NCBI GenBank assembly: GCA_903825315.1
Contig: CAIKAD010000002.1
Location: 186,001 to 250,000 of the forward strand
DNA length: 64,000 nt
Reading direction: 5' to 3'
Source of the DNA: an uncultured Candidatus Peregrinibacteria bacterium
GTDB taxonomy: Bacteria > Patescibacteriota > Gracilibacteria > Peribacterales > Peribacteraceae
Shown here: piece by piece, positions 5,690 through 60,387 of the stretch
How the letters are laid out: the number at the start of each line of letters is the position of its first letter
How positions within the stretch are numbered: the first letter of the stretch is position 1
Notes under the pieces: generated by a model
What the model saw: the letters and a program-made list of their open reading frames with translations, nothing else
Databases searched by the model: none
Told to the model about the DNA's origin: nothing
Program-made: the position numbers and the translations under genes

Positions 5690-5716
5690 TTGACACTAGT
5701 AGTATTTTGTTATAAT
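5690..5716 (+). promoter_or_regulatory. Promoter of cassette copy 1
   Basis: TTGACA (5690-5695) and a perfect TATAAT (5711-5716) with a 15-nt spacer. The expected start near 5723 lies just before the conserved leader hairpin at 5728. Confidence 0.75.
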
Positions 5717-5727
5717 TTATATCTAGT

Positions 5728-5814
5728 TGTTCTTTCAGAACATCGTCAAGGTTTTGAATGCGAGACAAGCATCCTGCGTCCCTTTTGGGCATAGGCTGCT
5801 TGTCTCATTCCGAG
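5728..5814 (+). promoter_or_regulatory. Conserved structured 5' leader, copy 1
   Basis: The leader begins with the hairpin TGTTCT-ttc-AGAACA (5728-5742), then the invariant block CATCGTCAAGGTTT. A second stem follows: GAGACAAGC (5762-5770) pairs perfectly with GCTTGTCTC (5798-5806) and encloses a small CCC/GGG hairpin. It ends in TTCCGAG. The two other copies (59261-59346 and 60179-60264) keep all stems, with A to G changes that turn A-U pairs into G-U pairs. About 90 nt more, including a GC-rich hairpin (CCCGGCGTTCCGGG), separate it from the start codon. Confidence 0.75.
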
Positions 5815-5903
5815 CGAGCCGCACCCGGCGTTCCGGGCCTGCCCGTCCGTAGCCCGAAGGGCGAAGGCGGGTACTGCCATTTTTTGAGAAAGGCTGGTGT
5901 GTC

Positions 5904-6587
5904 ATGTCACAAGACATGGTGCGTCAAGAAGTTGAGGAGTTCGGGAAGGATCACGGACTGATACACGAGATGATCGTGACGGGGCGCAAGGTCGGCGCTG
6001 GGCGGGCGTTCTACGCCTCGCTCACGCACAGTGAAGAGCTCTTCCGCCGCGTCGTCGCGATGGTCGAACAGGACCCCTTACAGGCAGCGCAGCACGCTCT
6101 GCTGGACGCAGTCGCGAAGGGGGTTACATTTGAGAACGGGGTCTACCGTTTCTTTGACCCCGGCACCCCGCTCATCATTCTGCGAGACATCCCGGTGATC
6201 CGCGAAAAGAAAATCATGAGCCGTCAGGAGTGGTACCAAGGCTACAACTGGGCTCAGCATGCGGATGTTCCGCAAGAGCGCCTCCTCCGCGTCCCCGTGG
6301 ACGGATCCTTCAACCTGGCCTTCTGGAATCAGAAGAAGCTCCTCACGAAGGGTGAAGCAGTGCCCTCGTCCCGCATCGTCGCCGCGTTCCTCGCCATCAT
6401 GGCGCTTTCGACCGGCAAGCGACTCCTGCCGGAACACTACATGCGCACGGCCGACACTGTCTCGGGCCGCGTAGACGTCGGCGAATTCCGTGCCGAAGGA
6501 TTTTGTGTCGGCATCTACTGGGATGACCGCTGCAACGTGTCCGTCGGTCTCGCCGCCGTCAATAAATCTCAAACCTTGGCCGCCTGA
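5904..6587 (+). CDS. Uncharacterised cassette protein, copy 1
   Basis: 227 residues, soluble, no signal peptide. The C-terminal part shares a pattern with the products at 58426-59199 and 59568-60122: a WY pair, then R-x-P-V-(P/D)-x-S, an F/Y-x-x-Q-x-x-LL stretch with GE-x-V, and a hydrophobic helix ending in LL. The N-terminal part (FGKDHGLIHEMI, EELFRRVVAMV) is specific to this copy. Similar short unknown proteins seem common in CPR genomes, but I cannot assign a function. The gene has its own promoter, the shared leader RNA and the shared terminator. GAAAGG about 13 nt before the ATG is a possible but weak ribosome binding site. Confidence 0.75.
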   Translation: MSQDMVRQEVEEFGKDHGLIHEMIVTGRKVGAGRAFYASLTHSEELFRRVVAMVEQDPLQAAQHALLDAVAKGVTFENGVYRFFDPGTPLIILRDIPVIREKKIMSRQEWYQGYNWAQHADVPQERLLRVPVDGSFNLAFWNQKKLLTKGEAVPSSRIVAAFLAIMALSTGKRLLPEHYMRTADTVSGRVDVGEFRAEGFCVGIYWDDRCNVSVGLAAVNKSQTLAA

Positions 6588-6611
6588 AGCCACGAGGCTT
6601 CTTGCATCTGT

Positions 6612-6647
6612 GAACCTCCGCGATTATTTCGCGGGGGTTCTTTTTTT
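6612..6647 (+). terminator. Rho-independent terminator of cassette copy 1
   Basis: GAACCTCCGCG (6612-6622) pairs with CGCGGGGGTTC (6630-6640), and a run of seven T follows. The same sequence terminates the two other cassette copies. Confidence 0.9.
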
Positions 6648-6754
6648 ATGCAGTCGTCGTACCTCGCTTATGTAACCATCTTGGAGATGAGAACTGCAGA
6701 TGGCCGCGCCACGTGATCGCGAGCAGGGACGTAAAGCGGCTGCGCCGCCACGTC

Positions 6755-58351: not shown

Positions 58352-58387
58352 AAAAAGAACCCCCGCAAAACAATGTCGCGGAGGTTC
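58352..58387 (-). terminator. Terminator of cassette copy 2
   Basis: On the minus strand GAACCTCC-GC pairs with GC-GGGGGTTC, then TTTTT. Same stem as at 6612-6647 and 59496-59528. Confidence 0.88.
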
Positions 58388-58425
58388 AAGGCGTCGAGAG
58401 GGACAAGCCCTCAAGACTTCAAGGT

Positions 58426-59199
58426 TCAGGACTTCCGAGGAGGTACAGACGACGCCAGACCGAGGTCGCCGTAGCAGCCGTCATCCCAGTGGTCGTCGAC
58501 ATCAAACCCGTCGGAATCGAAGTTGCCGACGTAGACACGGTCGCCGTCCGAGCCCTTGTCTTGGCAGCGCACGTAGACATAAGGCAGCAGACGCTCGCGG
58601 TGCATAAGCCAGTAGAGGATGACCATGTAGATCACCTCGCAGGCAAACGGCACCTCCTCGTCCTTGAGGAGAGCGGTCTGCAGGTCGTAGGTCTTGCATC
58701 GGGACTCGGGCACCGGCTCCTTGCGGAGGAGATACCACCGGACACTCACCTTTTTGTCGTTGGCAAACGGCTCGCAGTTGTACCAGTCGGTGTCGTAGAA
58801 GGCGCTTTCGACAATCTCGCGAATTTCGTTCACAGAGAGAGCGCCACCTGCGACGAGGACGTGGGTGTCCTTGTACGCCTGGAGCGTCTCTTCGCTAAAC
58901 GGGATCTCCGCGAGCTGCGGTGCGGGGAGGGCGATACCGTAGCCCCTGCGCACCTCTTCCAAGCCGAGGAAGTTCTTGCCCATGATCGCACGGGCTTTGG
59001 CTTGGCTCTCGCTGTCGGGGATCGGGTCGCCAGTGACGGCACCAGCCTTCCAGAACGCCACGAGACGCTTGGCGAACGGTTGGTCACTGCGCAGGCGCTT
59101 GAGATCCTCTGGCGTAATGCCGAGATCCTCGAGAACCTTTAGCGTCTGGCAGACCTGCCCGAAGGTGGCCTTCCAGAGGCCACGGGTTGCGGTAGACAT
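58426..59199 (-). CDS. Uncharacterised cassette protein, copy 2
   Basis: 257 residues from the ATG at 59199, which has a perfect AAAGGAG 5 nt upstream. N-terminal helical part (FGQVCQTLKVLEDLGITPED, LRSDQPFAKRLVAFWKAG) has a pattern I recall from other CPR unknowns. The C-terminal half shares TDWY, R-x-E-PVPESRCKTY, Q-x-x-LL, DEEVP and WDDG with the other copies, and ends PPRKS. No catalytic motif known. It carries the full shared leader (59261-59346) and terminator. Confidence 0.75.
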   Translation of the reverse strand: MSTATRGLWKATFGQVCQTLKVLEDLGITPEDLKRLRSDQPFAKRLVAFWKAGAVTGDPIPDSESQAKARAIMGKNFLGLEEVRRGYGIALPAPQLAEIPFSEETLQAYKDTHVLVAGGALSVNEIREIVESAFYDTDWYNCEPFANDKKVSVRWYLLRKEPVPESRCKTYDLQTALLKDEEVPFACEVIYMVILYWLMHRERLLPYVYVRCQDKGSDGDRVYVGNFDSDGFDVDDHWDDGCYGDLGLASSVPPRKS

Positions 59200-59260: not shown

Positions 59261-59346
59261 CTCGGAACGAGACAAGCACTCTATGCACGCAGAATGCGCA
59301 GGGCGCTTGCCTCATACCTAAACCTTGACGATGCTCTCAAAGAACA
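59261..59346 (-). promoter_or_regulatory. Conserved structured 5' leader, copy 2
   Basis: TGTTCT-ttg-AGAGCA hairpin, CATCGTCAAGGTTT, then GAGGCAAGC pairing with GCTTGTCTC (one G-U), enclosing GCGCA/TGCGT. It is 85/86 identical to copy 3 and keeps the stems of copy 1 through compatible base changes. Confidence 0.8.
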
Positions 59347-59495
59347 CAATCATAAAATATAACAAATGACAATATCTGTCTATGGATCGGAGACGGGCAC
59401 CAGGCTCATTACAATGCCGTAATCCAGGCCTATGTAGCACTGGAGAGTTGTTGGAGTAGTACTTCCACTACCCCGCATTGCGAGGACAGCATTAC

Positions 59496-59528
59496 AAAAG
59501 AACCCCCGCGCAATAAACGCGGAGGTTC
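59496..59528 (-). terminator. Terminator of cassette copy 3
   Basis: GAACCTCCGCG pairs with CGCGGGGGTTC, then TTTTG on the minus strand. Between this and the gene is the shared block ACCTTGAAGTCTTGAGGGCT. Confidence 0.88.
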
Positions 59529-60178: not shown

Positions 60179-60264
60179 CTCGGAACGAGACAAGCACTCT
60201 ATGCACGCAGAATGCGCAGGGCGCTTGCCTCATACCGAAACCTTGACGATGCTCTCAAAGAACA
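60179..60264 (-). promoter_or_regulatory. Conserved structured 5' leader, copy 3
   Basis: Differs from copy 2 at a single position in 86. Upstream on the minus strand lies TTGACT with a TATTAT box 21 nt later, an unusually wide promoter spacing, or TAAAGT at 16 nt. Confidence 0.8.
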
Positions 60265-60387
60265 CCTTAATAATACTTTAATCTTAATTTGTATGTAGTC
60301 AAAGTTCTATGAGGATTATCGATCCCCTGGTAGCAAATTTTGCTAGTAACCCCGAACGTGCAGACCAATGTTTCCCCATTTCCTAAA

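Follow-up and report, generated by a model that had tools for sequence, protein, structure and literature searches.

A group of protein-coding genes in Candidatus Peribacteria is preceded by leader RNAs that open with the boxA element of the lineage's own rRNA operons (TTCANAGCATCG). The linker that follows this element is complementary to the 3' end of the very gene that it precedes, and the two complementary strands change together between cassettes. This anatomy, comprising the motif, its order, the complementarity and the coevolution, is well supported. An rRNA-like boxA tether combined with a helix that closes the 5' end of a protein mRNA on its 3' end is the best explanation for it, and one that we consider reasonably probable. 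From the same anatomy we infer binding of Nus factors, formation of a co-transcriptional loop, and an effect on gene expression.

Cassette architecture

The window, a stretch of 64,000 nucleotides from an uncultured Candidatus Peregrinibacteria bacterium, contains three cassettes, each with a promoter, a structured leader of ~85 nt, a gene, and a terminator (Table 1). They lie where an earlier inspection of the DNA letters (hereafter, the sequence-only reading) had placed them, and the terminators of the GAACCTCCGCG type were confirmed for all three. Promoter-like pairs of copies 2 and 3 were called by a promoter scanner. Copy 1 also has such a pair, but with its 15-nt spacer it was not called by the scanner, which requires 16-18 nt. 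The genome to which the window belongs (1.29 Mb, 99.6% complete, and, like all genomes compared, an uncultured assembly) holds seven cassettes, three within the window and four outside it.

Table 1. Features of the cassettes in the window, and positions of the four further cassettes in the same genome
Copy	Feature	Position	Strand	Basis or remark
1	Promoter-like pair TTGACA / TATAAT, 15-nt spacer	5690..5716	+	sequence
1	Leader	5728-5806	+	
1	boxA-like element TGTTCTTTCAGA, in small hairpin TGTTCT/AGAACA	5728..5742	+	sequence, fold
1	Linker CAAGGTTT, 5' strand of long-range helix	5747..5754	+	pairs with 6571-6578
1	Long hairpin GAGACAAGC...GCTTGTCTC	5762..5806	+	fold z -4.7
1	Gene, predicted DGR-target-family protein, 227 aa	5904..6587	+	
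1	3' strand of long-range helix AAACCTTG	6571..6578	+	
1	Intrinsic terminator GAACCTCCGCG..CGCGGGGGTTC and T run	6612..6647	+	confirmed at 6612-6640
2	Promoter-like pair	59354..59382	-	promoter scan
2	Leader	59346-59269	-	
2	boxA-like element TGTTCTTTGAGA	59335..59346	-	motif
2	Linker TCAAGGTTTAGG, 5' strand	59317..59328	-	12 pairs with 58430-58419
2	Long hairpin	59269..59313	-	fold, covariation
2	Gene, predicted DGR-target-family protein, 257 aa	58426..59199	-	
2	3' strand CCTGAACCTTGA, stop codon within	58419..58430	-	
2	Intrinsic terminator	58357..58387	-	confirmed
3	Promoter-like pair	60275..60302	-	promoter scan
3	Leader	60264-60187	-	
3	boxA-like element TGTTCTTTGAGA	60253..60264	-	motif
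3	Linker TCAAGGTTTCGG	60235..60246	-	one mismatch against 59572-59561
3	Long hairpin	60187..60231	-	fold, covariation
3	Gene, predicted DGR-target-family protein, 184 aa	59568..60122	-	
3	3' strand CCTGAACCTTGA, with stop codon	59561..59572	-	
3	Intrinsic terminator	59500..59528	-	confirmed
	Extra cassettes	C2:127.9 kb and C2:128.9 kb		found by pattern built from linker
	Extra cassettes	C1:279.5 kb and C1:395.7 kb		found by later covariance model

Two loci in related genomes are recorded here as observations in their own right. In G013 C69 (L010:1430-1640), a cassette retains an intact promoter, boxA and linker, but unrelated sequence extending up to a tRNA replaces the long hairpin and the gene. 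In G000 C2 (L001:950-1335), a short ORF resembling a GIY-YIG endonuclease appears to interrupt a tRNA gene, the 5' part of which is duplicated on the other side of the ORF.

Conservation and distribution of the leader RNA

As had been proposed, the leaders are better conserved than the proteins: mean column identity among the three window leaders is 87% over ~110 columns, and only about a quarter of residues are common to the three proteins in the family alignment. Each leader folds better than 200 of 200 shuffled sequences (z -4.7, -3.7 and -6.2 for copies 1, 2 and 3). The A-U to G-U changes described previously occur in both stems. In the small hairpin, TGTTCT/AGAACA changes to AGAGCA, and in the long hairpin, GAGACAAGC changes to GAGGCAAGC opposite the partner GCTTGTCTC. 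When 23 leaders were aligned, 12 of 27 stem pairs showed changes on both sides. Most of this covariation comes from the long hairpin (11 of 19 pairs), which is the second conserved structural part of the leader. Double-change cells numbered 31, versus 11.4 in shuffles (0/500), and the signal disappeared when the partners were slid.

A covariance model, R1, matches 27 of 353 genomes of the class, all of them in one Peribacteria family, and it locates new leader copies directly 5' of family genes in G000 (two), G003 and G104. Thus, the proposal of a regulatory leader attached to a dispersed gene family is supported: the leader recurs elsewhere, its stem pairs covary, and it is linked to the protein family. 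However, it is not confined to that family, because fae, the gene for formaldehyde-activating enzyme (PF08714, E 6.6e-19), carries the leader too. Weaker R1 matches sit before other genes, including a pyruvate phosphate dikinase-like gene (L283, G037 C16) and a csrA-like gene (L287, G043 C55). At a further weak match (L285, G053 C4), the 3' end of the downstream gene is complementary to the boxA-like stretch itself. From these weak matches, the set of boxA-bearing mRNAs may be wider than the cassettes and fae. Among Rfam families searched against the window, only tRNAs reach the gathering score, and the cassette leaders have no match; sub-threshold matches are weak and cover only the terminator region.

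A boxA element shared with rRNA leaders

Cassette leaders start with TGTTCTTTNAGAGCATCG or a variant of it, and the leader in G016 holds the exact E. coli boxA consensus, TGCTCTTTAACA. The sequence-only reading correctly regarded the leader as structured but did not recognize that its first element is an rRNA-type boxA, matching in sequence the rRNA boxA of the lineage itself. In 14 of 15 family genomes, a relaxed comparison places (A/T)GCTC(C/T/A)TTCACAGCATCG or a near variant in the 16S leader, at a distance of 90-320 nt before 16S; a strict boxA regular expression missed most rRNA leaders. This motif is matched by 0-1% of shuffles and was found in 0 of 10 genomes of other families.

Across 74 family genomes, the pattern TCNTTNANAGCATCG gives about 120 matches versus 9 for a reversed control (about 12-fold). 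Its matches in the window's genome are exactly five cassette leaders and the leader of the one rRNA operon; several others in the family lie in coding-like contexts and are probably due to chance. The boxA of the cassettes sits inside an 8-bp hairpin.

Complementarity between the linker and the 3' end of the gene

Immediately after boxA, the rRNA operon has a stretch (GCATCGTGTAGTAGAGAA) that is complementary to part of the 16S trailer (TTCTCTACTACACGATGC), located about 165 nt downstream of 16S. This leader-trailer pairing mostly spans 16-20 bp and shows compensatory changes in G022, G023 and G004, and own pairs score better than swapped pairs (p 5e-5). In the cassettes, the linker after boxA is likewise complementary to the end of its own gene, mostly across the stop codon. 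This relationship between a single-stranded part of the leader and the distant 3' end was overlooked when the leader was first described. As in the leader-trailer (boxC) helix of rrn operons, the strand that follows boxA has a covarying complement beyond the gene, although protein genes are enclosed instead of 16S or 23S. Linker and 3' strand have both changed together in G006 (TCAAGATTT / AAATCTTGA), G102 (CAAAGTTCAG / CTGAACTTTG), G022 (GGAGTTCAAG / CTTGAACTCC), G052 (TCAGGAAGT / ACTTCCTGA) and G016 (TCGAGATT / AATCTCGA).

Pairing was tested with an anchored ungapped score; duplex energies of whole linkers were too noisy. For 24 cassettes, linkers matched with their own 3' ends score 572.5, compared with 487.6 +/- 15.5 when partners are swapped (0/20,000), with the reservation that leaders within the family are related and permutation leaves some phylogenetic signal. 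The 13 most divergent cassettes also gave 0/20,000, and in a nine-column core anchored by hand, 206 of 216 cells are paired versus 192.9 after swapping. The same test applied to 46 window ORFs as a negative control gave p values of 0.23 and 0.59. Judged by their sequences, the fully different linkers of G022, G052, G102, G016, G104 and fae speak strongly against inheritance as the sole cause.

A second set of 11 cassettes outside the first test (own6, own7, G003b, G104, G106, five fae genes and G053a) scored 241.5 versus 185.8 +/- 10.9 (0/50,000), although this set was not fully blind, in that linkers and 3' windows were cut by hand after pairing had been sought by eye. The pyruvate phosphate dikinase (PPDK) and csrA cases, other weak cases, and a fae homolog in G047 with no recognisable leader were omitted from it. 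Eight of its members (fae, G104, G106 and G053a), which are mostly unrelated genes, give p 0.00016 by themselves; in the weakest fae case (G098), pairing requires a bulge.

Mismatches at the helix ends are G.U in 25 of 61 cases, compared with 20.5% expected from composition (p 2e-4), and this excess therefore favours an RNA helix over a DNA inverted repeat. Three cassettes (G108a, G019 and G011) have an A.C mismatch in the helix core, and one in G004 has lost both the linker and the pairing. In copy 1, the stop codon has changed (CTGAACC to CTCAAACC), and therefore the frame extends by 5 codons. The usual stop in the paired 3' strand is gone from copy 1 (window 6560-6590) and also from the G008 cassette (L125), where the frame likewise extends by a few codons; the paired bases are largely retained in both despite this loss.

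Relation to other mRNA leaders

If the helix governed translation or RNase III decay as an ordinary pairing between 5' and 3' UTRs, no role for Nus factors would be needed and the likeness to boxA would be secondary. The helix is indeed the best-supported part of the cassette, and S. aureus icaR, in which the two ends of one bacterial mRNA pair over a long range, is a precedent for such UTR pairing (PMC3868564). However, icaR is a single gene with no boxA, and its pairing involves the Shine-Dalgarno region and represses translation (PMC3868564). In the cassettes, by contrast, the paired strand is the linker after boxA; about 100 nt or more separate this linker from the start codon downstream, and it leaves the Shine-Dalgarno region uncovered. 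Moreover, the element preceding the linker is the rRNA leader motif in both sequence and order. We therefore judge this alternative unlikely, at perhaps one chance in five.

Elements of rRNA-type boxA have been found before protein genes in the 5' UTRs of gamma-proteobacteria, including suhB and other genes (PMC5725501). Unlike those of the cassettes, they were sought no farther than 50 bp from the start codon, and that of suhB represses; no pairing partner at the far end of the gene is mentioned in the parts of that report on which we draw (PMC5725501).

The cassette genes and DGRs

The sequence-only reading was right that an uncharacterised gene follows each leader, but it missed the identity of this gene. 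Whether or not they are live targets, the window genes can be assigned by sequence to a protein family of targets of diversity-generating retroelements (DGRs). A profile made from eight cassette proteins matches 23 of 74 family genomes, and a broader one matches 28 of 353 class genomes, all inside the family. RVT_1 reverse transcriptases (RTs) are present in 27 of the 74 family genomes and often adjoin a target gene (G006, G031, G108, G019, G028, G052 and G005), with an AAC-rich copy of the last ~110 bases of the target gene close by. In relatives, differences between template repeat (TR) and variable region (VR) fall almost only at template adenines. The counts at template A versus other bases are 15/31 versus 0/87 in G028, 14/29 versus 1/89 in G108a, 19/33 versus 2/84 in G019, 19/30 versus 3/93 in G031, and 12/28 versus 2/93 in G052.

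The window genes are alignable only to foreign TRs, and their differences are A-biased, not A-only. No RVT_1 match was found in the window's genome or in three other members of the genus that were examined. Since this genome has no RT, its cassettes are presumably left over or fixed. For the same reason, we dropped a still-active DGR in this genome as a candidate.

Like the Patescibacteria targets of DGR clade 2 described by Roux et al. 2021, the cassette genes have a 3'-terminal variable region, a predicted C-terminal fold that may be C-type-lectin-like and, in relatives, TR and RT nearby (PMC8144416). The absence of an RT from the window's genome sets it apart from those systems; that study mentions no leader RNA, and the word 'leader' does not occur in it (PMC8144416). 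The AF2 model of one family member has a pLDDT of 86 and a best Foldseek E of 6.7e-3. In VIA-align comparisons, C-type lectins, EgtB and Treponema denticola variable protein 1 give Z scores of 7-9, near the level of common matches. At these moderate scores, the predicted fold of the variable domain may resemble those of C-type lectins and of the T. denticola protein. Searches with the cassette proteins gave nothing above cut-off in Pfam and NCBIfam, no convincing sequence match in the PDB, and no match in viral contigs. A restricted search of public contigs returned two records from Peribacteria and, from Howlettbacteria, one distant target protein that no leader precedes.

A conserved region of ~300 nt lies between the terminator of the target gene and the template repeat (GATACACTGCATC...GCCGGGATTACGGTTCC..., L128:2260-2570), and equivalents lie past the terminators in L008, L125, L129 and L126. 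It probably represents the 5' portion of the DGR template RNA, and what look like short remnants of it are present after copy 1 (about 6648-6700) and after copy 3.

Because most carriers are DGR targets, and because the 3' strand starts where TR-VR homology ends, the inverted repeat might belong to the DGR machinery and mark, for retrohoming, where the variable region ends on its 3' side. Yet this layout and pairing recur in fae, which is unrelated to DGRs, and in the G106 gene, and the architecture is therefore no component of DGRs. In addition, the genus of the window keeps the leader with no RT match, and an enrichment of G.U pairs would have little meaning for DNA. The chance that this explanation is correct appears to be slight.

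Still smaller is the probability that the leader is a ligand-binding riboswitch or attenuator, as the sequence-only reading implied. A conserved, structured and covarying leader would fit such a role, but the leaders of the window copies contain no internal intrinsic terminator and have no Rfam match. Their most conserved part is a boxA motif common to rRNA, and the linker varies freely provided that the 3' end of its own gene follows; nothing points to a ligand-binding switch. Equally improbable is that the repeats are the ends of a transposon- or integron-like mobile cassette spreading the gene family: copies are tandem and dispersed with conserved flanks around variable genes, but promoter and terminator flank both repeats, which thus fall within the transcript, their sequences differ between cassettes of one genome (own7 versus own2), and none of the contexts listed for 106 core-pattern loci in viral contigs is cassette-like.

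A model based on rRNA transcription

The explanation that we favour, a boxA tether with a closing helix, draws on the rrn boxA/boxC antitermination leader and the pre-16S leader-trailer helix (rrnTAC), whose parts recur in the cassettes in the same order. A boxA-type element near the transcript start leads directly into a strand whose pairing partner is a trailer past the gene, and GCATCG after boxA is common to the cassettes and the rRNA leader of the lineage. The cassettes differ from rrn in that they enclose a protein-coding gene, have a helix of 7-17 bp versus mostly 16-20 bp, place the 3' strand over the stop codon, insert a long local hairpin between the strands, and hold boxA in a hairpin. 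In E. coli, boxA bound by NusB is proposed to keep boxC at the RNA exit channel during the looping out of 16S, poised to pair with the trailer as soon as the latter emerges (PMC10250234).

By analogy, the cassette leader would be an mRNA version of the pre-16S rRNA leader. The boxA-type element just past the promoter would recruit NusB-S10 and remain tethered to RNA polymerase, and the linker, acting like boxC, would stay at the exit channel as the ORF is looped out. Once the complementary stretch at the stop codon emerges, a 5'-3' helix could form that encloses the complete ORF. What we observe is that the linker and the 3' strand are complementary and coevolve, and we infer from this that the helix forms and acts. 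The modified polymerase would most likely reach the end without Rho termination. Only full-length messages would then gain the closed-loop end structure, which might protect them or set their translation and processing. With the 3' strand lying over the stop codon, the helix would be opened by ribosomes during translation, and we speculate that such opening could couple closure to translation.

Several points weigh against the model. NusB could bind the cassette boxA only once the surrounding hairpin has opened, the closing helix falls short of the rRNA one in length, and ribosomes would melt a helix at the stop codon. The A.C mismatches in three cassettes, the lost pairing in G004 and the bulge needed in G098 count against it as well.

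Conclusions

As far as a limited literature search shows, the cassette arrangement has not been described before. The boxA element and the leader-trailer helix are paired signals that let RNA polymerase fold and finish rRNA. The presence of both around protein genes, in the same order and with the rRNA sequence of the lineage itself, suggests that loop-and-close is a mechanism that can be moved from one kind of gene to another. The joint change of linker and 3' strand makes the closing helix amenable to simple compensatory mutants, and R1 can be converted into an RNA family.

More broadly, we see an even chance that Ca. Peribacteria route a general class of protein mRNAs, including those of hypermutated DGR targets and of the metabolic gene fae, through the manner of transcription used for rRNA, in which a boxA-tethered polymerase, a looped-out gene and co-transcriptional closure would yield closed-loop mRNAs. 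The cassettes also provide a first clue to the expression of DGR-target genes in Patescibacteria.
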